Shown: positions 48,239 to 62,494 of the stretch, piece after piece | How positions within the stretch are numbered: the first letter of the stretch is position 1 | How the letters are laid out: each line of letters starts with the position of its first letter | Notes under the pieces: model-generated | What the model was told of the DNA's origin: nothing | Databases searched by the model: none | The model's input: the letters and a program-made list of their open reading frames with translations, nothing else | Source: an uncultured Opitutaceae bacterium | GTDB taxonomy: Bacteria > Verrucomicrobiota > Verrucomicrobiia > Opitutales > Opitutaceae | Length of the DNA: 64,000 nucleotides | NCBI GenBank assembly: GCA_937902925.1 | Contig: CALFNN010000013.1 | Coordinates: 62,001 to 126,000 of the forward strand | Reading direction: 5' to 3' | Program-made: the position numbers and the translations under genes

Positions 48239-49435
48239 ATGACCGACGACGTCGAAGTCACGTCCGACACCGACTCCACGCCGCGCCACCTTGCGCCCGG
48301 CGACGTCGGTCTCGTGTCGCCGCGCGACTTCGTCCACGCGCAGCCCTTCACGTTCAAAAGCGGCCAGGTCCTGCCGGGCTTCACGCTCCGCTACGAGACC
48401 TACGGCCAGCTCAACGCCACGCGCGACAACGCCATCCTCATCTGCCACGCGCTGAGCGGCGACCATCACTGCGCCGGCTGGCATTCGCCCACCGACCGGA
48501 AGCCGGGCTGGTGGAACAATCTCATCGGCCCCGGCAAGGCCGTCGACTCGCGCCGCTTTTTCGTCGTCTCCGTCAACGTCCTCGGCGGCTGCCAGGGCTC
48601 GACCGGTCCCTCCTCGACCAATCCGGAAACCGGCCGGCCGTATGGCACGTTGTTTCCGTTCGTCACCATCCGCGACATGGTGCGCTCGCAGAAACTGCTG
48701 CTCGACCACCTCGGCGTCGCCGAACTCCACGGCGTCATCGGCGGCTCGATGGGCGGCATGACCGCGATGCTGTTCGCGATCGAGTATCCCCGCTTCGTCC
48801 GCCGCGTGCTCGCCATGGCCACCACCGGGCGCGAGAGCGCGCAGGCCATTGCATTCAACGAGGTCGGCCGCCAGGCGATCATGCAGGACCCCGCGTGGAA
48901 CCGCGGCGACTACCCGCGCGACGGCGGCCCGCGCGTCGGCCTCGCCATCGCGCGCATGATGGCCCACATCACTTACGTCTCCGACGCCAGCATGGACCGG
49001 AAGTTCGGCCGCCGGAAAAAAGAGACCGCCACCGGCGACGCCTACACGTTCGACGTCCAGTTCGAGGTCGAGGGCTACCTGCGCCACCAGGGCCAGAGCT
49101 TCATCAACCGTTTCGACGCGAACTCGTATCTCTACATCACGCGCGCGCTCGACCAGTTCGATCTTGCCGACGCCCACGGCTCGCTCGAGGCCGCCTTTGC
49201 CCCGGTCGAGGCCGAGACGCTCGTCGTCGGCTTCACGAGCGACTGGCTGTTCCCGCCCGAGCAAAACCGCGCGCTCACGCTCGCGCTCCTCCGCGCCGGC
49301 AAGCGCGCCAGCTACGCCGAGCTCTCCACCGACCTCGGCCACGATTCGTTCCTTCTCGAGTCCGAGGAGCTCTACACGCTCGTCCGCGGCTTCCTCGAGC
49401 GCGACCAGCCGTTCGTGTTCGACTACTCGATCTAG
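48239..49435 (+). CDS. metX: Homoserine O-acyltransferase (MetX)
   Basis: 398 residues, alpha/beta hydrolase. The nucleophile Ser170 is in VIGGSMGGM, the acid Asp in GFTSDWLFPPEQ and the His in LGHDSFLLES. ICHALSGDHHCAGWH, GGCQGSTGPSSTNPETGRPYG and the rest fit the MetX family throughout. It activates homoserine with acetyl-CoA or succinyl-CoA in the first committed step of methionine synthesis. The donor is not decided by motif reading here. metW follows after 3 bases, as in many genomes. Confidence 0.95.
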   Translation: MTDDVEVTSDTDSTPRHLAPGDVGLVSPRDFVHAQPFTFKSGQVLPGFTLRYETYGQLNATRDNAILICHALSGDHHCAGWHSPTDRKPGWWNNLIGPGKAVDSRRFFVVSVNVLGGCQGSTGPSSTNPETGRPYGTLFPFVTIRDMVRSQKLLLDHLGVAELHGVIGGSMGGMTAMLFAIEYPRFVRRVLAMATTGRESAQAIAFNEVGRQAIMQDPAWNRGDYPRDGGPRVGLAIARMMAHITYVSDASMDRKFGRRKKETATGDAYTFDVQFEVEGYLRHQGQSFINRFDANSYLYITRALDQFDLADAHGSLEAAFAPVEAETLVVGFTSDWLFPPEQNRALTLALLRAGKRASYAELSTDLGHDSFLLESEELYTLVRGFLERDQPFVFDYSI

Positions 49436-49438
49436 ACC

Positions 49439-50044
49439 ATGACCAAGCTCGTTGAAAAACGCACGGTGGACATGGAGATCATCGGGGACTGGGTGGAACC
49501 CAACACCCGGGTGCTCGACCTCGGCTGCGGGCCCGGCGTGCTGCTCGACTACCTCGTCCAGACGAAAAAAGTCTCCGCCGTCGGCGTCGACCTCGACTTC
49601 ACGAAGATCACCGCCTGCGTCCGCCGCGGCGTCGCGGCCTACCAGGGCGACATGATCGCGTTCATGCGCACGTTTCCGGAAAGGCATTTCGACCGCGTGA
49701 TCTGCTCGCGCACCGTTCAGGAGCTGAGCGATCCCACCGCCGTCATCACCGAGGCGCTGCGCGTCGGCCGGGCGCTCACGGTCGGCTTCGTGAACCACGG
49801 TTTCTGGAAAAACCGCCTGCACACCCTCCTCCGCGGCCGCAAGATCCGCAACGAGGTCTACACCACCGAGTGGTTCGAGAGCCGCCCGGCGAATCCCGTC
49901 ACGATCGCCGACTTCGAGCATTTCTGCGCCGCCAAGGGCATCCGCGTCGCGCGCCGCGCCCACCTCGCCGGCAACTGGCATAAGCCCTGCCGCACGCTCC
50001 CCAACCTCCTCGCCGGCTACGCGCTCTACGACCTGACGCGCTGA
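49439..50044 (+). CDS. metW: Methionine biosynthesis protein MetW
   Basis: 201 residues with a methyltransferase fold: RVLDLGCGPGVLLDYLVQTKKVSAVGVDLDF is the nucleotide-binding region, followed by VICSRTVQELSDPTAVITEALRVG. NHGFWKNRLHTLLRGRKIRNE and HKPCRTLPNLLAGYALYDL are MetW-specific. In other bacteria MetW forms a complex with MetX and is needed for its activity. The gene starts 3 bases after the metX stop, so both are made together. Confidence 0.93.
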   Translation: MTKLVEKRTVDMEIIGDWVEPNTRVLDLGCGPGVLLDYLVQTKKVSAVGVDLDFTKITACVRRGVAAYQGDMIAFMRTFPERHFDRVICSRTVQELSDPTAVITEALRVGRALTVGFVNHGFWKNRLHTLLRGRKIRNEVYTTEWFESRPANPVTIADFEHFCAAKGIRVARRAHLAGNWHKPCRTLPNLLAGYALYDLTR

Positions 50045-50129: not shown

Positions 50130-50465
50130 CTATCGCTCGAACACGCCGGCCTGCTTCGCCAGCTGCCTCTCGAGGCTGCCGCACACCAGTTCGCACAACT
50201 GGAAGATCGACGGATCCGCGATCGAGTAGAAGACCTGCAGGCCCTCCTTCCGGCGCCCGAGGATATGCGCGTGGATCAGCGTCTGGAGGTGCCGCGAGAC
50301 GTTCGCCTGCGTGCCGCCGGTCAGCTCCACGAGCGTGTTGACGCTCTTCTCGCCGTCGAAGAGGGCGTGGACCAACCGCAACCGCAGCGGCTCCGACAGC
50401 ACGGCGAACCGGTGCGCGATCATCACGAGCGCTTCATCCGACAATGGGCGGGGCTTCTTTGGCAT
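50130..50465 (-). CDS. ArsR-family regulator 1
   Basis: 111-residue winged helix: VMIAHRFAVLSEPLRLRLVHALFDGEKSVNTLVELTGGTQANVSRHLQTLIHAHILGRRKEGLQVFYSI. The last helix contains two cysteines in FQLCELVCGSL. It is close to the regulator at 60275 (same SEPxRLRL, GGTQxNxSRHLQTL, GRRKEGLQ blocks). It is divergent from the sulfur cassette and followed on the other side by metW. A GTG 50492 start would add 9 residues. The ligand is unknown; a sulfur or thiol signal is inferred from context and the paired cysteines. Confidence 0.88.
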   Translation of the reverse strand: MPKKPRPLSDEALVMIAHRFAVLSEPLRLRLVHALFDGEKSVNTLVELTGGTQANVSRHLQTLIHAHILGRRKEGLQVFYSIADPSIFQLCELVCGSLERQLAKQAGVFER

Positions 50466-50484
50466 GGGAGGAAGGGAGGCCGGC

Positions 50485-50520
50485 TTGACCACGAAGTCAA
50501 ATATGCGGATATATGGATAA
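50485..50520 (+). promoter_or_regulatory. Cassette promoter and ArsR operator
   Basis: TTGACC (50485-50490) and GATATA (50508-50513, 17-base spacer) make a plausible sigma-70 promoter for the FadL-to-MOSC genes. The word ATATGCGGATAT (50501-50512) overlaps the -10 box. It matches 11 of 12 bases with the site before ArsR 2 (60645-60656), so ArsR binding would block transcription. Confidence 0.5.
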
Positions 50521-50665: not shown

Positions 50666-52078
50666 ATGAAAACCACCCAGTCCGCTCCGCGTCCCGCCAT
50701 CATTCTTGCCGGCGTCGTGCTCGCCTTCGCCGGCCCCCGCCTTGCCGCCACCAACGGCATGAACATGGAGGGCTACGGGCCGGTTGCGACCGCCCTGGGC
50801 GGCGCCTCCTTCGCCTACGACAACGGCACCGCCGCCATCATCAACAACCCCGCCACGCTCAGCCTGATGCCGGACAACTCCCGGCTCGATGTCGCCGTCG
50901 GCATCCTCGGGCCGGACATCACGGCAACCAATCCCGCCGGCCAGACCGCGAAATCGAAGGCGACGGCGTTCTTCATGCCGGCGTTCGGCTACACCGAGCG
51001 CACCGGCGATTTCACCTACGGCCTCGGCGTGTTCGGCCAGGGCGGCATGGGCTGCCAGTATGACGGCAGCACGTGGCGGGGACTCGGCTTCAATCTCGAA
51101 AACCGCACCGAGGTCTCGGTCGGCCGCGTCATCGCGCCGCTTTCCTGGAAGGTCAACGACCGGCTCAGCGTCGCCGCCACCGCCGACTTCGTCTGGGCCG
51201 GCATGGATCTGAAGATGGCGATGAGCGGAGCGCAGTTCTTCGACCTCGCCACGCCCGGCAGCCAGCAGTTCGGCCGCGCCGATGGCACCATCGTGCAGAG
51301 CTTCGGCCAGATCATGCAGCAGATGCCCGCCGGCACGAACGTCGACTACGCCTACTTCAATTTCTGCAACGGCAATCCGTTCACCGGCGCCGCCAAGGGC
51401 TACGGCTACGCCGGCAAGGTCGGCGTCGTCTATCGCCCCACTCCCGAACTCACCTTTGGCTTCACCTACCACTCGGAGACCGAACTCGCCGATCTGAAGG
51501 CGCCCGGCTCGTCGATTAGCTTTCAGCTGAATGTCCCCGGCATGGGCGCCATGCCGCAAACTCTCACCGGCGACCTCCGCGTGCGCGACTTCGAATGGCC
51601 CGCGATGGCCGGCGCCGGGCTCGCGTGGAACCCGCCCGGCCAGTGGTCGTTCGTCGCCGACGTGCGCGAGGTGTTCTGGAGCGACGTCATGCAGAACTTC
51701 AACATGTCGTTCGTGGCCTCCGGCGCCGCGGCCAACGGGCCCTTCGCCCGCCAGTCGCTCGCCGCCACGCTGTTCCAACGCTGGGACAACCAGCTCATCT
51801 TCCAGGGCGGCACCTCCTTCGCTGCGACCCGCGCGCTTACCCTCCGCGGCGGCGTCAACCTGAGCAGCAATCCGATCCCGGACAAATACCTGAACTGCCT
51901 CTTCCCGGCGACCATCGAGCGCCACGTGACCGCGGGCTTCTCCTACCGGTTCGGCGAAAGCTCCAGTGTCGATTGCTCGGTGACCTACGGCCTCAAGGCC
52001 ACCTATACGAACGGCTACGGCATCACCATCAGCCACCGGCAGCTCAACACGCAGCTCATGTATGCCCGACGGTTCTGA
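50666..52078 (+). CDS. FadL/TodX-like outer-membrane channel
   Basis: 470 residues with a signal peptide (AIILAGVVLAFAGPRLAA). NGMNMEGYGPVATALGGASFAYDNGTAAIINNPATLSLMPDNSRLDVAVGILGP is the FadL-type N-terminal plug with NPA motif, followed by alternating strands ending in Phe (QLMYARRF). Members import hydrophobic molecules across the outer membrane. Its place as first gene of a putative sulfur-reductase cassette suggests it admits a poorly soluble substrate, perhaps elemental sulfur or polysulfide; this is inference. Confidence 0.82.
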   Translation: MKTTQSAPRPAIILAGVVLAFAGPRLAATNGMNMEGYGPVATALGGASFAYDNGTAAIINNPATLSLMPDNSRLDVAVGILGPDITATNPAGQTAKSKATAFFMPAFGYTERTGDFTYGLGVFGQGGMGCQYDGSTWRGLGFNLENRTEVSVGRVIAPLSWKVNDRLSVAATADFVWAGMDLKMAMSGAQFFDLATPGSQQFGRADGTIVQSFGQIMQQMPAGTNVDYAYFNFCNGNPFTGAAKGYGYAGKVGVVYRPTPELTFGFTYHSETELADLKAPGSSISFQLNVPGMGAMPQTLTGDLRVRDFEWPAMAGAGLAWNPPGQWSFVADVREVFWSDVMQNFNMSFVASGAAANGPFARQSLAATLFQRWDNQLIFQGGTSFAATRALTLRGGVNLSSNPIPDKYLNCLFPATIERHVTAGFSYRFGESSSVDCSVTYGLKATYTNGYGITISHRQLNTQLMYARRF

Positions 52079-52093
52079 CCGCCACCGTCCGCC

Positions 52094-54286
52094 ATGTCGC
52101 CCACGCTTTCCCGCCGCCGTTTCTTGAAAATCTCCGCCGCCACGATCGTGGCCGGCGCGGCGGCGGGACGCGTGAGTTCGGCCATCGCCGCGTCCACGGC
52201 ACCGACGGGCCTGCGCCGGGTTCCGACGTTTTGCGACCTCTGCTTCTGGAAGTGCAACGCCATCGCGACCGTGCGCGATGGCCGCCTCTGGAAAATCGAG
52301 GGCAACTCCAATGACCCGCTCAGCCGCGGCCGGCTCTGTCCGCGCGGCACCGGCGGCATCGGCGCGTCGAGCGACCCCGACCGGCTCCGCTCCCCACTCA
52401 TCCGCACCCGCGAACGCGGCGCCGAGGAATGGAAGGAAGTCACCTGGGACGAGGCACTCGACTACGTCGCCACCCGGATGAAAAAAATCGCCGTCGAGCA
52501 CGGCCCGGAGTCGATGGCGCTCTTTGCCCACGGCATCGGCGGCACCTTCGTCAAGCACACGCTCAAGGCCTACGGCACGCCCAACATCGCCGCGCCGTCC
52601 TTCGCGCAATGCCGCGGCCCGCGCGACGTCGGCTTCAATCTCACCTTCGGCGAGGAGGTCGGTTCGCCCGAGCGCACCGACATCGCCAACACCGACTGCC
52701 TCGTGCTCATCGGTTCGCACCTCGGCGAAAACATGCACAACACGCAGGTGCAGGAGTTCGCCGAGGCCGTCGGTCGCGGCGCCACGGTGATCGTCGTCGA
52801 CCCGCGGTTCTCCGTCGCCGCCAGCAAGGCCAAGCATTACCTGCCGATCCGTCCCGGCACCGACCTCGCGCTGCTCCTCGCGTGGATGCACGTGATCGTC
52901 ACCGAGAAACTCTACGATGCCGGCTACGTCGCGAAATACGGCTACGGCTTCGAGCCGTTTGCCGCCTCGCTCGCGACGTTCACTCCCGAGTGGGCCCATC
53001 CCGAGACCGGGATCGATCCGGAGACGATCCGCGCCACCGCGCGCGAGATGGCGCGCCACCGCCCCGCCACACTCGTCCACCCCGGCCGCCACGTGAATTG
53101 GAACGGCGACGATGCGCAGCGCAGTCGCGCCATCGCCTTGCTCAACGCGCTCCTCGGCAGCTGGGGCCGCAAGGGCGGCTTCTACGCGCCGGCCAGCATG
53201 GACGTGCCGCCCTACGCCTATCCGCCTTATCCGAAGCCCGCGCGCCCGAAGCTCGACAATCCCGACAAAAAATATCCGTTCGCCACCGAGAGCATCACGA
53301 CCGGCATCCGCGATGCGACGCTCACGGGCCAGCCCTACCCGATCAAGGGCTGGATGGTCTACGCGACGAACCTGATCAATGCCTTGCCGAAGCAGGCCGA
53401 CACGATTCGCGCGATCCAGCAGCTCGACCTCCTCGTCGTCGTCGACGTGATCCCGAGCGAAATCGCCGGCTGGGCCGACGTGGTTCTCCCCGAGTCGACC
53501 TACCTCGAACGCCACGACGAGTTGAACGTGGAGCTCTTCAAGGAGCCGTTCGTCGCGTTGCGCCAGCCCGTCATCGACTCGCCGCACGACCAGAAACCGA
53601 ATTGGTGGATCGCCAAAATACTCGCGGAGAAACTCGGTCTCGGTGCGTTCTATCCGTGGCACGACATCGAGGAGTATCTCGAAACGCGCCTCAAGGGCGC
53701 GAACCTGAGCCTCGCCGAACTCAAGCGCGCCGGCGTCGTGCGCGGACCGCGTCAGCCGATCTATTTCGACGAGGGCGTTCCGGCCGAATTTCCCACGCCG
53801 TCCGGCAAGATCGAGTTCTACTCGCCACAGCTTGCCGCCGCGGGCTTCGACCCGGTGCCGCGCTACACGGCGCCCGAGGCCGGGCCGCCGGGCGCATTCC
53901 GCCTCCTCTACGGCCGCGCGCCGATGCACTCGTTCAGCCGCACGCAGTCCAACCGCCTCCTCAGCGATCTCATGGACGAAAACGCCGTGTGGCTCAATGC
54001 CGTCGCCGCCCGCCGGCTCGGCCTGAAGACCGGTGACTACGTGCAGCTCCGCAACCAAGATGGCGCCGTCAGCCACCGCGTCCGCGTCAAGGCCACCGAG
54101 CGCATTCATCCCGATTGCGTCTATCTCGTCCACGGCTTCGGCCACACCGCGCGCGGCCTGCGCCACACGTTCGGCCGGGGCGCGAACGACGCCCAACTCA
54201 TCACGCGCTACAAGACCGACCCGCTCATGGGCGGCACCGCGATGAACGTGAACTTCGTCACCCTCGAACCCGCGGAGGCGACCTGA
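52094..54286 (+). CDS. Tat-exported molybdopterin oxidoreductase (PhsA/PsrA-like catalytic subunit)
   Basis: 730 residues. The Tat signal SRRRFLKISAAT (residues 6-17) sends it folded to the periplasm. The 4Fe-4S cysteines are C47, C50, C54 and C82, in CDLCFWKC and RGRLCPRG. The probable Mo-ligand Cys173 is in SFAQCRGPRDVGFNLTFGEEVGSPERTD. Two MGD-binding domains follow, with VVDPRFSVAASKAKHYLPIRPGTDLALLLAWMH and a C-terminal barrel ending near GGTAMNVNFV. It resembles thiosulfate/polysulfide-reductase A subunits in length and motifs. Ferredoxin and NrfD genes follow directly, completing the trimer. The substrate remains unknown. Confidence 0.9.
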   Translation: MSPTLSRRRFLKISAATIVAGAAAGRVSSAIAASTAPTGLRRVPTFCDLCFWKCNAIATVRDGRLWKIEGNSNDPLSRGRLCPRGTGGIGASSDPDRLRSPLIRTRERGAEEWKEVTWDEALDYVATRMKKIAVEHGPESMALFAHGIGGTFVKHTLKAYGTPNIAAPSFAQCRGPRDVGFNLTFGEEVGSPERTDIANTDCLVLIGSHLGENMHNTQVQEFAEAVGRGATVIVVDPRFSVAASKAKHYLPIRPGTDLALLLAWMHVIVTEKLYDAGYVAKYGYGFEPFAASLATFTPEWAHPETGIDPETIRATAREMARHRPATLVHPGRHVNWNGDDAQRSRAIALLNALLGSWGRKGGFYAPASMDVPPYAYPPYPKPARPKLDNPDKKYPFATESITTGIRDATLTGQPYPIKGWMVYATNLINALPKQADTIRAIQQLDLLVVVDVIPSEIAGWADVVLPESTYLERHDELNVELFKEPFVALRQPVIDSPHDQKPNWWIAKILAEKLGLGAFYPWHDIEEYLETRLKGANLSLAELKRAGVVRGPRQPIYFDEGVPAEFPTPSGKIEFYSPQLAAAGFDPVPRYTAPEAGPPGAFRLLYGRAPMHSFSRTQSNRLLSDLMDENAVWLNAVAARRLGLKTGDYVQLRNQDGAVSHRVRVKATERIHPDCVYLVHGFGHTARGLRHTFGRGANDAQLITRYKTDPLMGGTAMNVNFVTLEPAEAT

Positions 54287-54288
54287 CC

Positions 54289-54828
54289 ATGGCCCGCTAC
54301 ATCATGGTCATCGACACCCGTCGCTGCGTCGGCTGCATGGACTGCGTCGTCGCGTGCAAGACCGAGAACAGCGTCCCCGAGGGCTTCTGCCGCGACTGGA
54401 TCACCGAGACCGTCCACGGCGAGTTTCCCACCGTGCAGTTGGAAATCCGCTCCGAGCGCTGCAACCACTGCGCCAACCCGCCGTGCGTCGACTGCTGTCC
54501 GACCGGCGCCAGCCACGTCCACGAACGCGGCGGCGTGGTGCTCGTCACGCCCGAAAAATGCATCGGCTGCAAGGCCTGTCTCGCCGCCTGTCCCTACGAC
54601 GCCCGCTTCATTCACCCCGACGGCTACGCCTCGAAATGCACGTTCTGCATTCACCGCGTCGAGCAGGGTCTCCTTCCCGCGTGCGTTTCGGTCTGCCCGA
54701 CCCACTGCATGCATTTCGGCGACGCCGACGATCCGCTCAGCGACGTGAGCCGCCTGCTCGCCTCCCGCCCCAATTACACGCTGCTGCCGGAAGCCGGCAC
54801 GAAGCCTGGCGTTTACTACCTCACGTGA
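54289..54828 (+). CDS. Four-cluster ferredoxin electron-transfer subunit (PhsB/PsrB-like)
   Basis: 179 residues with sixteen cluster cysteines in four groups: C13-16-19-23, C58-61-66-70, C91-94-97-101 and C117-120-132-136 (CVGCMDCVVAC, CNHCANPPCVDCC, CIGCKACLAAC, CTFC...CVSVC). This is the small iron-sulfur subunit that passes electrons between the NrfD membrane subunit and the molybdoenzyme. ATG 54289 begins immediately after the oxidoreductase stop. It has no signal of its own and probably rides with the Tat partner. Confidence 0.93.
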   Translation: MARYIMVIDTRRCVGCMDCVVACKTENSVPEGFCRDWITETVHGEFPTVQLEIRSERCNHCANPPCVDCCPTGASHVHERGGVVLVTPEKCIGCKACLAACPYDARFIHPDGYASKCTFCIHRVEQGLLPACVSVCPTHCMHFGDADDPLSDVSRLLASRPNYTLLPEAGTKPGVYYLT

Positions 54829-54849
54829 ACCGCCGCCCGCCCAACCGCC

Positions 54850-55893
54850 ATGACTGAGTTCACCAACTTCCGCCACAATCCCGGCCTCGACCCCGCGGTG
54901 CACGTCTGGGGTTGGGAAATCCCTGTCTACCTCTTCCTCGGCGGGCTGGTGGCCGGCCTGATGATCATCGCCGGTGTCCGCCTCATGATCATGCGCCCGA
55001 CCGCGCGCCAGGCGCTGGTCTGCTGCACTATCGGCCCGCTCGCCGGGCTCGCGCTCCTCAGCTCGGGGATGCTCGCGCTGTTTCTCGACCTCACGAACAA
55101 GGTCAACGTCTGGCGCCTCTACCTCACGTTCGAGCCGACGTCGCCAATGTCGTGGGGCTCGTGGATTCTCCTGCTCGTCTATCCCGCGCTGCTCGCCAAC
55201 GCCCTCACGCATCTGCCGGAGGCGATTCCCGCCCTTGCCAAACGCGTCCCGGCGTTCGTCAAGATCAGCGACTACATCCTCGCCCGCCCTCGCTTCGTCG
55301 TGGGCATCGGCCTGGCCAACATCGCCATCGGCGTCGCCCTCGGGATCTACACCGGCCTCCTCCTCGGCACGCTCGGCGCCCGGCCGCTGTGGAACAGCGC
55401 CGTCCTCGGGCCGCTGTTCCTCTTTTCCGGACTCTCCACCGCTGCGGCGTTGCTGCACGGCATCCTCGTCCTCTCCACGCCGGACAACGAACGCCCCGAG
55501 TTCGCCGACTTCCTGCTCTCCATGCTGACCCGCTGGTCGGAGGCAAAGCCGCTCGACATCCGCATCGCGCCCACGCTCGCGCAGGCCGACAACAGTTTCC
55601 TCACCATCGAGCTGGCGCTGATCGGCCTGCTGCTGATCGGCCATCTCACCTCGACCGCCGCCCACCAGGCAGCCGCGCACCTCCTGCTGAACGGCCCTTA
55701 CGCCGCCGTCTTCTGGGTCTTCGTGATCGGCCTCGGCATTCTCATGCCGCTTTTCCTGCAGCACCTCGAACTGCGTCACCGCATCCGGCACACGATCGCG
55801 CCTTCGCTGCTCGTGCTTTGCGGCGGCCTGGTGCTGCGCTTCGTCCTCGTCGCCGCCGGCCAGGCCAGCCACTGGACCACCGCCCTTCACTAA
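54850..55893 (+). CDS. NrfD/PsrC-like membrane quinone subunit
   Basis: 347 residues with eight predicted helices. HVWGWEIPVYLFLGGLVAGLMIIAGVRL is the typical NrfD opening. Later come LFLDLTNKVNVWRLYLTFEPTSPMSWGSWILLLVYPAL and PLWNSAVLGPLFLFSGLSTAAALLHG. It anchors the ferredoxin and catalytic subunits and exchanges electrons with menaquinone, so the trimer is a respiratory complex. It starts 21 bases after the ferredoxin gene. Confidence 0.92.
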   Translation: MTEFTNFRHNPGLDPAVHVWGWEIPVYLFLGGLVAGLMIIAGVRLMIMRPTARQALVCCTIGPLAGLALLSSGMLALFLDLTNKVNVWRLYLTFEPTSPMSWGSWILLLVYPALLANALTHLPEAIPALAKRVPAFVKISDYILARPRFVVGIGLANIAIGVALGIYTGLLLGTLGARPLWNSAVLGPLFLFSGLSTAAALLHGILVLSTPDNERPEFADFLLSMLTRWSEAKPLDIRIAPTLAQADNSFLTIELALIGLLLIGHLTSTAAHQAAAHLLLNGPYAAVFWVFVIGLGILMPLFLQHLELRHRIRHTIAPSLLVLCGGLVLRFVLVAAGQASHWTTALH

Positions 55894-55914
55894 CCAACTC
55901 AACCCGCGCATCGC

Positions 55915-56454
55915 ATGAGTGCATCCACCGAAACTCCCCCGCCGGCGAAGCCGCACATGAATCCCTACTGGGCCGGATTCGGCCTCGGACTCGTGCTGCT
56001 CTCCGCCTTCGTCGTCATGGGCCGCGGCCTCGGCGCGTCCGGGGCGTTCACCACCGCCCTCGCCACGACCGTCCACGCCGTCGCGCCCGCGCACGCCGAG
56101 GGCAACGCTTTCTACCGCGAATACCTCGGTGACGGCACCACCAACCCGCTGAAAGACTGGCTCGTGTTCGAGGTGCTCGGCGTGTTCGTCGGCGGCTTCC
56201 TCTCCGGCGCGCTCGCCAACCGCCTCAGGCTCACCATCGAAAAAGGCCCGCGCATCTCGACCCTCGGCCGCCTCGTGCTCGCTTTTCTCGGCGGCGCGCT
56301 GATGGGCATCGGCGCGAAACTCGCGCTCGGCTGCACCAGCGGTCAGGCGCTCACCGGCGGTGCGCTGCTCAACGTCGGCAGCTGGGCCTTCATGCTGTGC
56401 GTGTTCGGCGGCGCCTACGGCCTCGCCTGGTTTCTCCGGAGGGAATGGCTATGA
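55915..56454 (+). CDS. YeeE/YedE-family transporter subunit 1
   Basis: 179 residues. A first helix (ISA GLGLVLLSAFVVMGRGLG region) is followed by a periplasmic loop and then FEVLGVFVGGFLSGALANRL. The family signature MGIGAKLALGCTSGQALTGGALLNVGSWAF closes it, including the cysteine used for thiosulfate relay in characterised members. It probably forms a split transporter with the next gene, whose start overlaps its stop (ATGATG). It is thought to move thiosulfate or another reduced sulfur species inward. Confidence 0.88.
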   Translation: MSASTETPPPAKPHMNPYWAGFGLGLVLLSAFVVMGRGLGASGAFTTALATTVHAVAPAHAEGNAFYREYLGDGTTNPLKDWLVFEVLGVFVGGFLSGALANRLRLTIEKGPRISTLGRLVLAFLGGALMGIGAKLALGCTSGQALTGGALLNVGSWAFMLCVFGGAYGLAWFLRREWL

Positions 56455-57710
56455 TGGCGCCCTTCTTCAAATACGGACTCTTCGGCGACGAGGTCTCGCT
56501 CATCGTCGCGTTCGTCACGGGCATCGGCTTCGGCTTTTTCCTCGAGCGCGCCGGCTTCGGCAACGCCCGGCTTCTCGCCGCCCAGTTCTACTTTCGCGAT
56601 CTGCGCGTCCTGAAGGTCATGTTCACCGCCATCGTCACCGCGATGGTCGGCCTCTTCGTCCTCGCCCGCATCGGCCTCGTCGACCTGTCGCTCGTTTATC
56701 TCACGCCGACGTTCCTCGTGCCGCAGATTGTGGGCGGATTGATTCTCGGCGCCGGGTTCATCGTCGGCGGCTACTGTCCCGGCACCTCGTGCGTCTCGGC
56801 GGCGATCGGCCGCGTCGACGGCATGGTTTTCCTCGCCGGCATGATCGGCGGGCTCGTCGGCTTCGCCGAAATTTATCCGCACATCGCCGCCTTTGCCCAC
56901 TCCACCCCGATGGGTCAGTTGACGCTCGCGCAGTTGTTCCACATTCCCTACGGCGTCCTCGTCTTCGCCGTCGTCGTGATGGCGCTCGGCGCGTTTGTCG
57001 CCGCCGAGTGGGCCGAGATGAAAATCGGCGGCAAGCAACCCGACGCCGGCTCCCTTCTCGCGCCAACCGCCCGGCTGACGCCCGTCCGCCGGTTCGCCGT
57101 CGCCCTGCTCGCCATCGGCCTCGTCGCCGCCTTCGCCGGCAATCCGTATCGCGGGCCGTTCGCCCGCATCGACGCCCGGCAACTCGCGCTCGACGCCGGC
57201 TCGCCCGCCGACCAGGTCGCCGCCGGGCAGCTCGCCGACTGGTTGATCGCCGGCCGCAACGATTTTCTCCTCGTGGATGTCCGCGACGCCGCGGCCTTCG
57301 CGCAGTATCATATTCCCGCCGCGCTCAACGTGCCGCTCGCCAATCTCGCCGCGGATTTCGCCTCGCGCAACGAACGGATCGTCGTCTACGGCGAGGGCGG
57401 CACCGCCGCCGCTCAGGCGTGGATGCTGTTGCGCTCCCTCGGTTATCCCGCCGTTCATCTGCTCGCCGGCGGGCTCGAGGAATGGAAAGCCACGGTGCTC
57501 TTCCCGAAGGCGCCGGCGGCCGACGCCCCGCCCATCGAGCAAATTGAATTCGCCCGTCGCTCCGCGATGGCGAAATATTTCGGCGGCACCCCGCAATGCA
57601 CCGGCGCCTCGGCACCGACTGCGCCGGAGTTGCCCAAGCTTCTGCCGCCGCCGGCTGCCGCTCCCGGCGCGACGCCCGTCGCCCAGCGCAAAAAGAAGGA
57701 AGGTTGCTGA
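56451..57710 (+). CDS. YeeE/YedE-family subunit 2 fused to a rhodanese domain lacking the catalytic Cys
   Basis: 419 residues. The first 190 form the second YeeE/YedE half, with C109 and C114 in FIVGGYCPGTSCVSAAIGRVDG. A membrane helix and linker then lead to a rhodanese domain (about 235-350: FLLVDVRDAAAFAQYHIPAALNVPL). At the active-site loop, IVVYGEGGTAAAQ has Gly314 where rhodaneses carry the catalytic Cys. The chain ends in a Pro-rich tail and a final Cys. ATG 56451 has GGAGGG 7 bases upstream; an earlier ATG at 56445 is too close to it. The domain may bind but not transfer sulfur. Confidence 0.88.
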   Translation: MMAPFFKYGLFGDEVSLIVAFVTGIGFGFFLERAGFGNARLLAAQFYFRDLRVLKVMFTAIVTAMVGLFVLARIGLVDLSLVYLTPTFLVPQIVGGLILGAGFIVGGYCPGTSCVSAAIGRVDGMVFLAGMIGGLVGFAEIYPHIAAFAHSTPMGQLTLAQLFHIPYGVLVFAVVVMALGAFVAAEWAEMKIGGKQPDAGSLLAPTARLTPVRRFAVALLAIGLVAAFAGNPYRGPFARIDARQLALDAGSPADQVAAGQLADWLIAGRNDFLLVDVRDAAAFAQYHIPAALNVPLANLAADFASRNERIVVYGEGGTAAAQAWMLLRSLGYPAVHLLAGGLEEWKATVLFPKAPAADAPPIEQIEFARRSAMAKYFGGTPQCTGASAPTAPELPKLLPPPAAAPGATPVAQRKKKEGC

Positions 57711-57747
57711 GCCGGGCGGGCCTCCGCCCGTCGACCGGAAAGGAATC

Positions 57748-59793
57748 ATGCGGCGCGAAAGTCAAAACGCATCGCCGCAACCGCACCGTCGCTGGACGCT
57801 CTTCATGCGGCTCGGCGGCGCCGTCGCCACGATCGCCGCCGCCGTCGCGCTCGTTGCCGGGCTCGGTGGTCTGTTGATGTCACGCCTGCTCTCTCGCTGG
57901 CCGGCCGGATGGACAACGCGCGCCGCGGTCGGCGTGTTCGCTCTCACTGCCACCGACGCCGCGTTCGTCGCGACGACCACCTCGCCGCATCTGACAAACA
58001 ATCCCGCTCAAGCCGAAAGCTGCCTCACCTGCCACGCCGGCATCACCGGCTTCAGCGAATTTCACCGGCCGGAAAACATCGGCTGCGCCGCGTGCCACGC
58101 GGGCAACCCGCGGGCGCCCGACGCCACGCAGGCCCACGCCGGCATGGTCCTCGTCCCCGGCAATTTCGCCGATGCGCCGCGCACCTGCGCCACCGCGAAT
58201 TGCCACGCGACGATTCTCCCGCGCATCGAGCACTCGATCATGACGACGTTCGCCGGCGTCATCGCCACCGACCGCCACGTCTTCGGCGAATCCGTCGATC
58301 CCGCCGCGCCGCCGCCGCACGTTCACGACCTCGGCACGAGCGCCGCCGACACCCATCTCCGCCAGCTCTGCGCATCCTGCCATCTCGGCCAGACCAAATC
58401 CGCCTGGGGCCCGATCGGTCAGGAATCCCGCGGCGGCGGCTGCAACGCCTGCCACCTCGCCTACCCGCCCGACGCCGCCCGCGAACTCGCCCGCTACTCC
58501 GGCACGCGGCCCGCCGACCGCATCGCGATTCCCCGCGTGCATCCGGCGCTGACCGTGAACATCGGCGACGACCACTGCTTCGGCTGCCACAGCCGCTCCG
58601 GCCGCATCGCCACCAACTACGAAGGCTGGCACGAGCTCCGCGACCCGCCCACATCCGCCGAACTCGCCTCCGCCGCCGGTCCGTCGCAATTTCGCCAGCT
58701 CGACGACGGCCGGTTCTTCACGCGCATCGTGCCCGACATCCATCAGGAGCGCGGCCTCGCCTGCATCGACTGCCACTCCGCCAGCGAAGTCATGGGCACC
58801 GGCGCCGTGGTCGCCCACAAGAGCGATCAGGTCCATCTTCGCTGCGAGGACTGCCACGCCGACCAACTCGCCTCGCGCCCCGCATCCTCGCTCGACGCTG
58901 AATCGCTCATGATCGCAACGATCCGTCGCTGGCCACCCGCGGCCGGTCAGCGCATCGGCGTCACGCAATCCGGCGATGCGCTGGTCAATGTCACAGTCGA
59001 TGAAAACGGCCGCGGCAACCTGCGTCTCAAACGCACCGGCCGGACGCTATCGCTCACGCCTCCGCAGCCCGTCTGCACCGCCGGCAAGGGCCACGAACGC
59101 CTCTCGTGCAGCAGTTGCCACACCGCGTGGGCGCCGCGCTGCGCGAGTTGCCACACGCAATACGAGCCCGCCACGCGCAGCTTCGATCACCTCGCGCAGG
59201 CCGAAATCACCGGAGCGTGGACCGAATCGTCCGGTCCGTTCGAGGCGGTGCCGCCAACGCTCGGCATCCGCCTCGACCCGCGCGACCCGAGTCACCCGCG
59301 CGGCGTCGTCGACACGTTCGTCCCCGGCATGATCCTCGACCTCGATCGCAACCGCGATCCAGCCAAACCCGCCGACCCGGTTTTCCGCCGGCTCTACGCA
59401 CGCACGTCGGCTCACACCATCCGCCGCGAGACGCGCTCCTGCGAATCGTGCCACAACGATCCCGTCGCGCTCGGCTACGGCCGCGGCACGTTGCGCTACG
59501 AGGTCTCCGGCACCACCGGCCGCTGGCGCTTCACGCCGGAACACGCCGCGCTTCCATCCGACGGCCTGCCCGCCGACGCGTGGATCGGTTTCCTCCAGAC
59601 TCGCGGCGGCATGGTGTCCACGCGCGACGACGTCCGCCCGTTCACCGCCGACGAGCAACGCCGCATCCTCCGCGTCGGCGCCTGCCTCACCTGTCACGCC
59701 GCCGACTCGCCAGTCATGCAACGCTCCGTCGCCGACTTCGACGCGTTGCTGGCTCGTCGCACTCCGCGATGCGCACTACCTTTATGGCCATGA
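57748..59793 (+). CDS. Dodecaheme-type multiheme cytochrome c
   Basis: 681 residues. An N-terminal membrane anchor (FMRLGGAVATIAAAVALVAGLGGLLM) is followed by a periplasmic part with eleven CxxCH heme motifs and one CX4CH (CATANCH). The motifs are CLTCH, CAACH, CASCH, CNACH, CFGCH, CIDCH, CEDCH, CSSCH, CASCH, CESCH and CLTCH. Additional His residues could supply distal ligands. No known family name is certain; it has the feel of sulfur- or nitrogen-cycle multiheme proteins. AAAGG sits 7 bases before ATG 57748. It may conduct electrons to or from the molybdoenzyme. Confidence 0.88.
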   Translation: MRRESQNASPQPHRRWTLFMRLGGAVATIAAAVALVAGLGGLLMSRLLSRWPAGWTTRAAVGVFALTATDAAFVATTTSPHLTNNPAQAESCLTCHAGITGFSEFHRPENIGCAACHAGNPRAPDATQAHAGMVLVPGNFADAPRTCATANCHATILPRIEHSIMTTFAGVIATDRHVFGESVDPAAPPPHVHDLGTSAADTHLRQLCASCHLGQTKSAWGPIGQESRGGGCNACHLAYPPDAARELARYSGTRPADRIAIPRVHPALTVNIGDDHCFGCHSRSGRIATNYEGWHELRDPPTSAELASAAGPSQFRQLDDGRFFTRIVPDIHQERGLACIDCHSASEVMGTGAVVAHKSDQVHLRCEDCHADQLASRPASSLDAESLMIATIRRWPPAAGQRIGVTQSGDALVNVTVDENGRGNLRLKRTGRTLSLTPPQPVCTAGKGHERLSCSSCHTAWAPRCASCHTQYEPATRSFDHLAQAEITGAWTESSGPFEAVPPTLGIRLDPRDPSHPRGVVDTFVPGMILDLDRNRDPAKPADPVFRRLYARTSAHTIRRETRSCESCHNDPVALGYGRGTLRYEVSGTTGRWRFTPEHAALPSDGLPADAWIGFLQTRGGMVSTRDDVRPFTADEQRRILRVGACLTCHAADSPVMQRSVADFDALLARRTPRCALPLWP

Positions 59794-60299
59794 TCACCGC
59801 CCCCACCGTCACGATCGCCGTGCACCGGCTCGCGATTTCGCCCGGTCACAATTTCTTCGGCCACCACGGCCACCCCGCCGGCGCGCATCCCACCGTGCTC
59901 GTCGACGCCGTCGAGTGCGTCGCCGGCCGCGGCATTCGCGGCGACCGCTTCTTCGACTACGAGCCGGACTACGAAGGCCAGATCACGTTCTTCTCGCTCG
60001 AAATCTTCGACGCCCTCCGGCGCGAACTCCCTCTCCCCGCTGCCCGGCCCGAGGCGACCCGCCGCAACGTCTTCACCCGCGGGGTCGATCTCAACGCGCT
60101 CATCGGGGCCGAATTCGAACTGCACGGCGTGCGCTTCCTCGGCGTCGAGGAATGCCGCCCGTGTTACTGGATGGACCGCGCACTCGCGCCCGGCGCCGAG
60201 GACTGGATGCGCGGCCGGGGCGGCCTGCGCGCCCGGATCGTGTCCGGCGGCTGGCTCCGCTGCGACGGGGCGCCTCAGGGCGCCAGCGCGTCGACCTGA
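59790..60299 (+). CDS. MOSC-domain protein
   Basis: 169 residues. VHRLAISPGHNFFGHHGHPAGAHPTVLVDAVECVAGRGIRGDRFFDYEPDYEGQITFFSLEIFD, RRNVFTRGVDLNALIGAEFELHGVRFLGVEECRPCYWMD and the rest are the MOSC fold, with the conserved Cys in EECRPC. MOSC domains carry sulfur or act with molybdenum cofactors. ATG 59790 overlaps the cytochrome stop (ATGA); ATG 59784 or 59769 are alternatives. Being the last cassette gene, it could mature the Mo cofactor of the 52094 enzyme or pass sulfane sulfur on. Confidence 0.85.
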   Translation: MITAPTVTIAVHRLAISPGHNFFGHHGHPAGAHPTVLVDAVECVAGRGIRGDRFFDYEPDYEGQITFFSLEIFDALRRELPLPAARPEATRRNVFTRGVDLNALIGAEFELHGVRFLGVEECRPCYWMDRALAPGAEDWMRGRGGLRARIVSGGWLRCDGAPQGASAST

Positions 60300-60634
60300 C
60301 TGCTCAACTGCTGCTTCAGGCAACCGCACACGAGCTCGCACAACTGGCCGATCGAGGGATCGGTGATCGCGTAGATCGTCTGCAGCCCTTCCTTCCGGCG
60401 TCCCACGATTCCCGCCTGCGCCAGCGTCTGCAGGTGCCGCGAGATGTTCGTCTGTGTGCCGCCCGTGAGATCCACCAGCTCGTTCACGCTGCGCTCACCC
60501 GCGAACAGAGCGTGAATCAGCCGCAGTCGCATCGGCTCGGACAACACCGCAAACCGCCGCGCGACCAGCGCAATCGCCGCTTCGTTGAGCGGCGCCGGCT
60601 TGACTCCGGCGGGGGAAAAATCGGGGGTTGACAT
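60275..60634 (-). CDS. ArsR-family regulator 2
   Basis: 119 residues, a paralog of the regulator at 50130: LVARRFAVLSEPMRLRLIHALFAGERSVNELVDLTGGTQTNISRHLQTLAQAGIVGRRKEGLQTIYAITD. The last helix has three cysteines (GQLCELVCGCL). Its 3' end overlaps the MOSC gene by 25 bases on the opposite strand. It is divergent from the DUF2892-to-RND operon, an arrangement like E. coli ygaV-ygaP, where an ArsR protein senses sulfide. The signal here is inferred, not shown. Confidence 0.9.
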   Translation of the reverse strand: MSTPDFSPAGVKPAPLNEAAIALVARRFAVLSEPMRLRLIHALFAGERSVNELVDLTGGTQTNISRHLQTLAQAGIVGRRKEGLQTIYAITDPSIGQLCELVCGCLKQQLSSQVDALAP

Positions 60635-60672
60635 GAAATACGCTATATGCGTATATGCGCATCTAGTGTCAA
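60628..60672. promoter_or_regulatory. Overlapping face-to-face promoters with ArsR operator
   Basis: Plus strand: TTGACA (60628-60633), 17-18 bases, then GTATAT/TATATG (60651-60657). Minus strand: TTGACA (60672-60667), 17-18 bases, then CATATA/ATATAG (60649-60643). The word ATATGCGTATAT (60645-60656) covers both -10 boxes, and ATGCGCAT follows. One bound ArsR dimer could silence both directions. Confidence 0.6.
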
Positions 60673-60680
60673 CCCCAATC

Positions 60681-60905
60681 ATGAAGACCGATTCCCTTGT
60701 TCGCCTCCTCGCCGGCACCGTCACCCTGGCCGGCGTCGCCCTCACCTATTTCGTCAATCCGTGGTGGCTGCTGTTGCCCGCGTTTGTCGGGGCCAACCTC
60801 ATCCAATCCGTTTTCACCGGCTTCTGCCCGCCGACCTTGCTCGTCCGCAAGCTCGGCTGGGTCGACGAGCACGACGTCATCCACTGGGGCGGCCGCCAGC
60901 GCTGA
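60681..60905 (+). CDS. DUF2892 (YgaP-tail-like) membrane protein
   Basis: 74 residues with two helices: LVRLLAGTVTLAGVALTYFVNPWWLLLPAFVGANLIQSVFTGFCPPTLLVRKLG. The FTGFCPP motif is typical of DUF2892, which forms the membrane tail of the E. coli rhodanese YgaP. The rhodanese part is absent here, so it stands alone. It is the first gene of the operon divergent from ArsR 2. Members are linked to sulfur stress by context; molecular function is unknown. Confidence 0.85.
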   Translation: MKTDSLVRLLAGTVTLAGVALTYFVNPWWLLLPAFVGANLIQSVFTGFCPPTLLVRKLGWVDEHDVIHWGGRQR

Positions 60906-61137: not shown

Positions 61138-61146
61138 TTGACAATG
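61122..61146. repeat. Imperfect TAGTT palindrome before tolC
   Basis: GTCATCTA-T-TAGTTGAC (61126-61142) has one mismatch in the 8-bp arms. Arms can be extended to 12 bases with one more mismatch. It overlaps the stop of the DUF6132 gene and the start region of the TolC gene. It shares the core of the sites at 3342 and 7398, and may be a regulator site for the efflux genes. Confidence 0.5.
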
Positions 61147-62484
61147 CCTCGTGCCCCCATGCATCTCCCAAAACTGGCCGTCGTCGCCGTCAGCCTTGCC
61201 GCCTGCGCCGCACCCGCCGCGTTCGGCGCCGAGCCGTGGACGCTCGACCGCGCCGTCGCCACCGCGCTCGAGCACAGCCCCGACGCCCGCGTCGCCCGCG
61301 CCCGCGCCGACGGCGCTCAGGCGCTCGTCGAACAGGCCGGCGCCGCCTGGCTGCCGCAGGTCTCGCTCTCCGGCCGCTACACGGACACGAACAGCCCGAT
61401 GATGGCGTTCGGGTCGATCCTCAACCAGCGCGCGTTCAACTTCGGCCTCGACTTCAACCACCCCGGCCGGATCGACAACCTCAACGCCACCGGCACGGTC
61501 GCCTACAATATTTACAGCGGTGGCCGCGCCACCGCCGGCCGCACCGCCGCCAAGGCGGGCGCCGCCGCCGCGGACCTCGATTTGCGCGCGGCGCAGCAGC
61601 AGCTCGCGACCGAGGTCGTCAAGGCCGCCCTCAATCTCCGCAAGGCCCGCGAGGCCGTCACCGCCATCGAGGGCGGCGTGCGCGCCTACGACGCCGCGGT
61701 CAGCACCGCCCGCGCGCGGTTCGACGCCGGCCAGTTGCTCAAGGCCGATCTCCTCAGCCTCGAGGTGCAACTCTCCCAAACGCGCGAGTCGCTTTCCTCC
61801 GCCCGCCATGGCGCCGCGCTTGCCGCCCGCGCCTTTCAATTCGCCCTCGGCCTCGATCCGACCGACGCGCCCATCGAGCTCGCCAACGACGATCTCGCCC
61901 TCGCGCGCCTCACCGTCCCCGACACCCGCGATTTTTCGCAGCGCCCGGAGCTTCTGGGTCTGCAGGCTCGCGTCGATGCCGCCGAGGCAATGCTCCGTGT
62001 CTCCCGCGGCGGCCGTCAGCCCAACATCAACGCCTTCGCCAGCTACCAATACGACCACGGCTGGAAGCTCGACCGCGGCGCCGACAACTGGCTCGCTAGC
62101 GTGTCCGTCGATCTCAACGTCTTCGATGGCGGCACCACCTCCGGAAAAATCCGCCAGAGCAGCGCCGAACTCACCCAGGTCAGGGAGATGCTCCGCAAGG
62201 CCACGCTCGGCATCGGTCTCGAAGTTGAACAGGCGCGCCTCGCCCACGACGACGCGTCCGAACGCCTCTCGGTTTCCGCCCAAGCAGTCGCCCAGGCGAC
62301 CGAAAGCGCCGCGCTCAGCCGCGCCCGCTTCGAGCAGGGCGCGCTCCTCACCGCCGACCTCATCGGCGTCGAGAGCCGTCTCCTCGAGGCGCAGATGCGC
62401 CACGCCTTCGCCGCCGCCGACGAACGCATCGCCATCGCCGATCTTCGCCGCGCCCTCGGCCTGCCCGTTCTCCCGACGCCCTGA
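61144..62484 (+). CDS. TolC-family outer-membrane efflux protein
   Basis: 446 residues. A signal peptide (LAVVAVSLAACAAPAAFG) is followed by two outer-membrane efflux repeats: WTLDRAVATALEHSPDARVARARADGAQALVEQAGAAWLPQVSLSGRY and, in the second half, ELLGLQARVDAAEAMLRVSRGGRQPNINAFASYQYDHGW. The long helical segments that make the periplasmic tunnel are clear. It is the channel for the adaptor and RND pump that follow. ATG 61144 is used; a TTG at 61138 is a weaker alternative. Confidence 0.92.
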   Translation: MPRAPMHLPKLAVVAVSLAACAAPAAFGAEPWTLDRAVATALEHSPDARVARARADGAQALVEQAGAAWLPQVSLSGRYTDTNSPMMAFGSILNQRAFNFGLDFNHPGRIDNLNATGTVAYNIYSGGRATAGRTAAKAGAAAADLDLRAAQQQLATEVVKAALNLRKAREAVTAIEGGVRAYDAAVSTARARFDAGQLLKADLLSLEVQLSQTRESLSSARHGAALAARAFQFALGLDPTDAPIELANDDLALARLTVPDTRDFSQRPELLGLQARVDAAEAMLRVSRGGRQPNINAFASYQYDHGWKLDRGADNWLASVSVDLNVFDGGTTSGKIRQSSAELTQVREMLRKATLGIGLEVEQARLAHDDASERLSVSAQAVAQATESAALSRARFEQGALLTADLIGVESRLLEAQMRHAFAAADERIAIADLRRALGLPVLPTP

Positions 62485-62494
62485 TTCTATTCCC

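Follow-up and report, generated by a model that had tools for sequence, protein, structure and literature searches.

Molybdoenzymes of the Psr/Phs type are usually annotated as stand-alone reductases. Here, we describe an operon that encodes such an enzyme together with a split YeeE/YedE-type transporter, a rhodanese-like domain and a multiheme cytochrome. It occupies positions 50,666–60,299 of a 64,000-nucleotide stretch (referred to as the window) of the 6.0-Mb genome of an uncultured Opitutaceae bacterium (GenBank assembly GCA_937902925.1, contig CALFNN010000013.1, positions 62,001–126,000 of the forward strand). The Psr/Phs-type trimer is genetically tied to the split YeeE and to a conserved, non-catalytic rhodanese domain, and genomes that carry the dodecaheme cytochrome, which resembles ExtM of Geobacter, nearly always have this Psr. 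We propose, with a probability of about one half and on the basis of sequence comparison, that the operon encodes a quinone-linked oxidoreductase that acts on sulfane sulfur in the periplasm, together with a dedicated route for sulfur import.

Parts of this gene set are found in several described systems. The catalytic subunit of PsrABC from Thermus thermophilus (PDB 2vpw) resembles the window PsrA over its full length (47% identity over 720 columns), including identical iron–sulfur (Fe-S) and molybdenum-ligand cysteines. However, the PsrAs encoded with the set described here (cassette PsrAs) form a clade of their own, tied to YeeE halves, a pseudo-rhodanese and, in part, the dodecaheme cytochrome; the comparison with Thermus is one of proteins, not of gene neighborhoods. 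Enterobacterial PhsABC belongs to the same family, PhsA being the best NCBIfam profile for the window PsrA (508 bits), but this score is below the PhsA cut-off (694 bits) and identity to PhsA is 34%. In one plasmid phs operon that we inspected, phsABC is flanked by IS26 copies, and the annotation shows no YeeE or multiheme cytochrome.

For the transporter, the closest counterparts are PmpA and PmpB, half-length YeeE/YedE proteins with one conserved cysteine each (PMC11582611). The window likewise encodes a pair of C- and N-terminal halves with one invariant cysteine apiece, but these are larger (179 aa, and ~205 aa before the rhodanese part, compared with ~130 aa for PmpA/PmpB; PMC11582611), and the window differs in the fusion to a pseudo-rhodanese and in the operon shared with a molybdoenzyme. 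The cytochrome finds its counterpart in the extHIJKLMNOPQS cluster of Geobacter sulfurreducens, in which ExtM is a 12-heme cytochrome (PMC5877670). The likeness consists of the 12 hemes, a full-length profile match, and relatives accompanied by Rieske, cytochrome b, rhodanese and porin genes, whereas the window protein reaches 235 of the 800 bits set as the ExtM equivalog cut-off and has no Rieske, cytochrome b, ExtI or ExtH gene beside it. Neither Psr nor YeeE is named in the excerpted text of that source (PMC5877670).

The nearest published case is Desulfurivibrio dismutans, with Psr, periplasmic sulfur transferases, a porin and YeeE at several loci (PMC12142623). There, Psr is accompanied by a rhodanese-type sulfur transferase, and elsewhere a porin and YeeE/YedE are encoded near periplasmic sulfur transferases; however, the locus numbers of YeeE and the porin are away from the Psr operon, and the excerpted text mentions no dodecaheme cytochrome (PMC12142623). 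An initial annotation of the window, made from the letters alone, did not recognize the gene combination as a standard set. In agreement with this, we found no description of it in open-access PMC full text, among the matches listed (subscription journals and preprints were outside the search).

Gene content of the operon

The block consists of eight plus-strand open reading frames (ORFs), all open and tightly packed, with gaps of 15, 2, 21, 21, −4, 37 and −25 bases in operon order:

50666..52078, plus strand: FadL/TodX-type outer-membrane channel (PF03349, 104 bits)
52094..54286, plus strand: PsrA/PhsA-type molybdopterin catalytic subunit with the twin-arginine signal SRRRFLK (2vpw, 703 bits, residues 6–728)
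54289..54828, plus strand: PsrB-type ferredoxin with four 4Fe-4S motifs (PF13247; four cysteine groups in the sequence)
54850..55893, plus strand: NrfD/PsrC-type quinone-reactive membrane anchor (PF03916, 131 bits; 8 hydrophobic segments)
55915..56454, plus strand: C-terminal half of YeeE/YedE, PmpA-like, with an invariant cysteine in GCTSGQ (PF04143 positions 176–309; TsuA match)
56451..57710, plus strand: N-terminal half of YeeE/YedE, PmpB-like, fused to a membrane-anchored rhodanese-like domain without the catalytic cysteine (PF04143 positions 2–200; PF00581)
57748..59793, plus strand: ExtM-like dodecaheme c-type cytochrome with one N-terminal membrane helix (NCBIfam ExtM, 235 bits, residues 81–667; 12 heme motifs)
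59769..60299, plus strand: MOSC-domain protein, predicted to handle molybdenum cofactor or sulfur (PF03473, 34 bits)

The initial annotation had counted seven genes and thus fell one short, but its nearly gapless arrangement holds, as do all families that it named, from the FadL channel to the MOSC protein. The Pfam curated cut-offs are passed for FadL, Molybdopterin, Fer4_11, NrfD, Sulf_transp (twice), Rhodanese, Cytochrome_C7 and MOSC. The 'unusual composition' that it ascribed to the block applies to gene content and not to the bases: GC content is 0.682 in the block versus 0.692 in the remainder of the window, while 9.6-kb stretches sampled every 500 bases across the window have a mean of 0.691 (standard deviation 0.015). 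A foreign base composition is not supported, the GC content of the block being ordinary for the window.

The catalytic subunit

After Thermus Psr, which is matched over the full length, the next PDB chain matches the window PsrA at 193 bits. Among the NCBIfam profiles, PhsA is followed by formate dehydrogenase (239 bits), dimethyl sulfoxide (DMSO)/selenate reductase (232 bits), ArrA (160 bits) and TtrA (67 bits). We built a tree in which 45 cassette PsrAs were compared with Thermus PsrA, PhsA, three paralogues from the window's genome and six further enzymes (TorA, NapA, NasA, FdhF, FdnG and a DMSO/selenate enzyme). Here, the cassette PsrAs form one group beside Thermus PsrA, then PhsA, and do not group with the formate, DMSO/selenate, trimethylamine N-oxide or nitrate enzymes; ArrA and TtrA were compared by profile score only, and the tree does not include Wolinella PsrA, SreA and SoeA. 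Such a tree had been suggested in the initial annotation as a check on the sulfur assignment, and the catalytic subunit indeed falls beside Thermus PsrA and PhsA and outside the tested non-sulfur clades.

The Fe-S cysteines (Cys 47, 50, 54 and 82) are kept in all 47 rows formed by the 45 cassette PsrAs, Thermus PsrA and PhsA, and the molybdenum-ligand column is a cysteine in every one of them. The latter also holds for NapA, NasA, FdhF, FdnG and the three paralogues, so that this column is not specific to Psr/Phs. Taken with the twin-arginine signal, the four-cluster ferredoxin, the NrfD anchor and the position in the tree, these cysteines give the window enzyme the features of the Psr/Phs type. 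A plasmid origin is not supported either: among the plasmids compared, the best match of the window PsrA is PhsA at ~33%, and this PsrA clade was not found there.

The YeeE/YedE pair and the pseudo-rhodanese

PF04143 is matched in its C-terminal half by the first YeeE protein and in its N-terminal half by the second. Cys140 of the first half, located in the GCTSGQ motif, is kept in 51 of 51 readable loci (52 hits), and Cys109 of the second (protein P0006) in 50 of 50 (51 hits). We infer that Cys109 is the equivalent of the Cys91-type site. The pair thus has the arrangement of PmpA/PmpB, with two half-length proteins and one conserved cysteine each, at the Cys293- and Cys91-type sites (PMC11582611).

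The rhodanese-like domain behind the second half was called dead in the initial annotation, and this extends well beyond the window. At the active-site position, the 49 readable of 51 YeeE loci have serine (36), alanine (9), glycine (3, the window residue being glycine) or aspartate (1), and never cysteine. Other rhodaneses, encoded in some loci away from the YeeE pair, keep the catalytic cysteine. The domain is preceded by a membrane helix that is basic on its N-terminal side, which by the positive-inside rule would place it in the periplasm; in one locus (L153), it is a separate gene. The conservation of a dead domain suggests a role in binding or presenting sulfane sulfur rather than in transferring it.

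Conservation across phyla

The neighbors of psrA are kept together across phyla. A scan of contigs with three cytochrome homologues confirmed 223 relatives, the best 80 of which were used as loci (genomes and loci that were compared carry G and L numbers, respectively; G000 is the window's genome). These 80 come from Bacteroidota, Ignavibacteria, Gemmatimonadota, Acidobacteriota, Verrucomicrobiota and Rubrivivax; close matches of the window among named records include Lacunisphaera and uncultured Opitutae. PsrA is matched in 44 of the 80 loci, many of which lie on contigs that end early, and is full length in 40 (L066 and L067, with identical PsrAs, are counted separately). The ferredoxin and NrfD are encoded in all 40. 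Both YeeE halves are present in 37, and one or both in 39. The sole locus without YeeE (L060) lies on a contig that stops inside nrfD. YeeE-bearing psrA loci span Verrucomicrobiota, Gemmatimonadota, Acidobacteriota and Ignavibacteria/Bacteroidota. The same is seen in loci fetched via psrA, where 14 of 16 have a YeeE half (10 of 12 for those from the Ignavibacteria and Gemmatimonadetes classes), the remaining two contigs stopping before nrfD in either count. The synteny search advised in the initial annotation therefore comes out in its favor: the block is more than a chance assembly, and its stable unit is psrABC-yeeE-yeeE. Across several phyla, a whole PsrA clade is linked with a sulfur importer and, for part of its members, with a dodecaheme cytochrome.

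Around this unit, the set is more fluid. Where at least 9 kb is available on both sides of the cytochrome gene, psrA is present in 26 of 34 loci, and it lies divergent from, downstream of, or upstream of the cytochrome gene; these differing orders indicate that the linkage arose, or was retained, in more than one form. In two Rubrivivax loci, the cytochrome is present and no psrA lies within its reach. FadL is encoded directly upstream of psrA in all seven psr loci from the window's family or named Opitutae (the window, L034, L036, L066, L067, L137 and L138), and near the set in a few loci of Ignavibacteria, Acidobacteria and Flavobacteriaceae (L046, L069, L084, L095 and L149). MOSC homologues occur within the cluster in L034, L066, L067, L084 and L137. 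Genome G093 has the whole block, including two ArsR-type regulator genes and a YgaP-like gene that flank it in the window; the YgaP-like gene also adjoins the cluster in L034. Genome G141 has FadL-psrABC-yeeE-yeeE-MOSC without the cytochrome. FadL, MOSC and ArsR are lineage-local additions. Of the set as it was initially proposed, the union of a Psr/Phs enzyme with YeeE, FadL (in Opitutae) and a multiheme cytochrome is thus retained, but the cytochrome is accessory and FadL, MOSC and ArsR are local.

Cultured hosts include Lutibacter maritimus DSM 24450, Lutibacter flavus DSM 27993, Hyunsoonleella jejuensis DSM 21035, Maribellus luteus and Draconibacterium aestuarii. In each of these, the cytochrome locus also contains psrA and yeeE, which opens both the direction of the reaction and its substrate to bench work.

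Co-occurrence of Psr and the cytochrome

We sampled whole genomes from four classes, picked because the set was already known in them: the window's own class (286 genomes), that of Lutibacter (247), that of a Gemmatimonadetes bin (149) and that of an Ignavibacteriae bin (149). In this order, orthologous PsrA occurs in 4, 3, 7 and 19 genomes, the cytochrome in 3, 3, 2 and 7, and both in 3, 3, 2 and 6. Excluding the seed genomes (G000, G289, G290 and G291), 10 of 11 cytochrome genomes have Psr (stratified hypergeometric P = 1.2e-13, uncorrected for phylogeny; per class 7.4e-5, 3.3e-5, 0.041 and 8.6e-5, likewise uncorrected for relatedness). The one cytochrome genome scored as lacking Psr is G713, in which the cytochrome gene is broken by a stop. 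In the window's own class, the cytochrome search gave matches at E 0.001 or better in 37 of the 286 genomes, 34 of which were short and partial (E 4e-9 or weaker) and were excluded. Psr paralogues were also excluded, namely one with 35% identity in Bacteroidia (G324) and seven with 30–33% in the Gemmatimonadetes class.

The association does not require proximity. In two Bacteroidia genomes (G439 and G470), the Psr and cytochrome genes are on separate contigs, and in G085, a member of the window's family, FadL-psrABC-yeeE-yeeE and the cytochrome gene are 0.77 Mb apart. The cytochrome thus appears as an accessory that seems to need psrABC-yeeE-yeeE. As another candidate partner of the cytochrome, we considered octaheme tetrathionate reductase, which adjoins it in six loci, and rejected it as a fixed partner. 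Above the TIGR04315 cut-off, it is encoded by 3 of the 15 genomes with the cytochrome, 4 of the 19 with PsrA only, 2 of 24 chosen genomes with neither, and 0 of 4 carriers in the window's family.

The dodecaheme cytochrome

The window cytochrome has 11 CxxCH motifs and one CX4CH motif. An aligned homologue has CxxCH in place of the latter, whose cysteines and histidine do not vary among 44 homologues; this justifies counting it as a heme site and bears out the twelve hemes given in the initial annotation. Among 82 homologous ORFs, counting that of the window, 78 have exactly 12 motifs; the four exceptions (L043, L044, L087 and L091) are cut by a contig end or are shorter than their tblastn match. 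By its full-length profile match and its heme count, the protein is a distant relative of ExtM, an unassigned family that hereby gains a testable partner and a substrate class.

Two forms of the cytochrome can be distinguished. In 52 of the 82 ORFs, more than 270 residues precede the first heme, and 41 of these loci also have a Rieske ORF. In three long cytochromes whose N-terminal region was scanned, ExtP-like matches fall below the cut-off in all three, and Pfam Cytochrome_B is over the cut-off in two. The window protein belongs to the short form (30 ORFs, a class that includes ones cut by contig ends or frameshifts) and consists of one membrane helix and the heme part. Its AlphaFold model has a predicted local distance difference test (pLDDT) score of 85, with a helix at residues 13–49. 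The model, which is heme-free, has no Foldseek match to known folds at E 0.001 or better (best VIA Z 3.0), and sequence matches in PDB are weak and local; we do not take the missing match as evidence of a new fold.

Some relatives have further neighbors. In G085, a 12-heme ExtM-like protein (L035, 8793–11633) is encoded directly behind a small membrane protein that by eye resembles a DUF4405-type cytochrome b, far from the psr operon of that genome. Seven Bacteroidota loci (L051, L059, L061, L064, L073, L079 and L105) encode an ExtI-like porin, an ExtH-like rhodanese and a rhodanese lipoprotein. With one representative scanned per neighbor family, the scores in the Bacteroidota loci are 40 bits for ExtI (cut-off 150) and 75 for ExtH (200); those for ExtP are 42–65 (290). 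The ExtH- and ExtI-like genes may correspond to the Geobacter ext cluster in other bacteria. Four Bacteroidota cytochrome loci (L059, L062, L075 and L102) contain genes for a type III sulfide:quinone reductase and DUF1641, DsrC-like and DsrE-like proteins, and the representative of the type III sulfide:quinone reductase passes its NCBIfam cut-off.

Proposed mechanism and its direction

A working model of a periplasmic sulfane-sulfur oxidoreductase can be drawn from these components. Sulfur chains or thiosulfate would enter the periplasm, in Opitutae perhaps via FadL, and the molybdenum center of PsrA would carry out two-electron chemistry on S–S bonds. The electrons could be passed to or from menaquinone via the ferredoxin and NrfD. 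At the mouth of the YeeE pair, the pseudo-rhodanese may hold or present sulfane sulfur, which the pair might then move into the cytoplasm via its two invariant cysteines. The dodecaheme cytochrome would drain quinol electrons to periplasmic or outer-membrane acceptors, via a Rieske/cytochrome b pair in about half of the relatives and via some other donor in the window.

Where the cytochrome is present, we lean slightly (roughly 55:45) to net oxidation of sulfur over its reduction. Rieske/cytochrome b complexes oxidize quinol, and as the usual partners of the cytochrome they would need an enzyme that produces it; since the cytochrome depends on Psr, the arrangement is simplest if Psr makes quinol. 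Some Bacteroidota relatives have sulfur genes nearby (rhodaneses, a porin, type III sulfide:quinone reductase, DsrC and DsrE), which were counted for the proposed function, and the Flavobacteriaceae among the hosts (Lutibacter, Polaribacter and Hyunsoonleella), a mostly aerobic family, were counted for oxidation.

Several points weigh against the proposal. Those members of the Psr/Phs family that have names are reductases, the function of the operon is read from sequence comparison, and many relatives are metagenome bins. The P value for co-occurrence ignores shared ancestry, and across the four class samples PsrA is found without the cytochrome in 19 of 33 PsrA-bearing genomes, so that the core reaction must be able to proceed without the cytochrome. 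The oxidative lean rests on Rieske/cytochrome b partners that do not adjoin the window cytochrome: neither gene is its neighbor in the window, the part of the genome examined for them, and the window cytochrome therefore needs another donor. Nor do the window's ArsR regulators have the cysteine pair arrangement of BigR/SqrR/SoxR, for which reason sulfane-sulfur sensing of that kind was rejected. Finally, one case counted for oxidation carries little weight. Caldithrix abyssi, which has a Psr/Phs trimer near two single-domain sulfur transferases and was likened to the window by description only, did not grow by sulfur or thiosulfate respiration, but its authors ascribe this to a missing TorD chaperone and report that sulfur and thiosulfate are reduced to sulfide during fermentation (PMC5317091). 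Given both, Caldithrix says little on direction.

The strongest competitor, to which we give real though lesser weight than to the proposed oxidoreductase with sulfur import, is reductive sulfur respiration as suggested in the initial annotation, in which electrons would run from menaquinol via NrfD and the ferredoxin to PsrA, polysulfide or thiosulfate would be reduced to sulfide, the cytochrome would supply or store electrons, and YeeE would recover sulfur. Ignavibacteria and Bacteroidales, to which many hosts belong, are largely anaerobic, and the closest solved relative, Thermus Psr, is labeled thiosulfate reductase in PDB, followed by PhsA. However, this gives no ready reason for the dependence of the cytochrome on Psr, and the Rieske/cytochrome b partners would compete for quinol; the Flavobacteriaceae hosts and the failure of Caldithrix abyssi to respire sulfur or thiosulfate (PMC5317091) also speak against it. 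More speculatively, and in our estimate doubtful, the Psr-YeeE operon and the ExtM-like complex could be two halves of one undescribed respiratory chain. The molybdoenzyme would oxidize sulfane sulfur or sulfide in the periplasm into menaquinone, and a Rieske/cytochrome b/dodecaheme complex, or a stripped single-protein form as in the window, would carry the electrons onward, while sulfur would be handed via the pseudo-rhodanese to the split YeeE importer. If true, Bacteroidota, Ignavibacteria, Gemmatimonadota, Acidobacteriota and Verrucomicrobiota would all use such a chain. It would also suggest that the ext cluster of Geobacter acts physiologically on reduced sulfur, with selenite and tellurite as look-alikes.

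Alternatively, the block could hold two separate, neighboring systems, with an unrelated cytochrome serving, for example, nitrogen oxides or extracellular acceptors beside the Psr-YeeE operon. PsrA often lacks the cytochrome (in 13 of 19 genomes of the Ignavibacteria class), psrA is not in reach in 8 of the 34 cytochrome loci that extend 9 kb or more to either side, and the two are far apart in G085. We nevertheless regard this as unlikely: the cytochrome is almost confined to Psr-bearing genomes even when unlinked, and the adjacency recurs with different gene orders in several phyla. Improbable, and the weakest candidate of all, is a chalcogen-oxyanion system, in which the cytochrome and a porin would reduce selenite or tellurite and the Psr-like enzyme would handle selenium analogues. 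The cytochrome is a full-length ExtM relative, and ExtI-, ExtH- and ExtP-like genes occur in some Bacteroidota loci. In Geobacter, the reduction of selenite and tellurite is impaired when ExtI is lost (PMC5877670), and selenium is transported by a YedE-like protein (PMC11582611). Yet all Ext scores are far under their cut-offs, the Geobacter phenotype belongs to a porin that is absent here, and the enzyme core is Psr/Phs, not placed beside the DMSO/selenate enzyme in the tree.

Regulators and neighboring genes

Three further genes flank the operon:

50130..50492, minus strand: ArsR-type regulator 1, divergent from the operon (Pfam HTH_5; its sole cysteines form a C-x3-C motif in the C-terminal helix)
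60275..60745, minus strand: ArsR-type regulator 2, convergent with the operon, start uncertain (Pfam HTH_5; C-terminal CELVCGC)
60585..60905, plus strand: YgaP-like transmembrane protein, start uncertain (PF11127, 35.7 bits)

A C-x3-C motif of the CELVC/CEQVC type in the C-terminal helix is common to both window ArsRs and their relatives in L034, L036, L066 and L067; in ArsR1, it consists of C100 and C104. Sulfane-sulfur repressors of the BigR/SqrR/SoxR group have two conserved cysteines, Cys50 and Cys116 in sHdrR (PMC12423496). The window ArsRs score 43 and 44 bits against the NCBIfam BigR profile (cut-off 155), and their motif could form another kind of thiol or metal site for sensing than the one in BigR/SqrR. 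Next to the Lacunisphaera copy of the cluster (L036, 359–718, minus strand), a second ArsR-like protein is encoded whose cysteine pattern is distinct and richer.

Just upstream of the operon (48500–50044, plus strand) lies MetW (PF07021), preceded by an alpha/beta-hydrolase ORF that is MetX-like by eye; that methionine genes adjoin a sulfur cassette may be coincidence. Downstream (61138–63523, plus strand), a TolC-like protein and a membrane fusion protein of the resistance-nodulation-division (RND) type were identified by eye.

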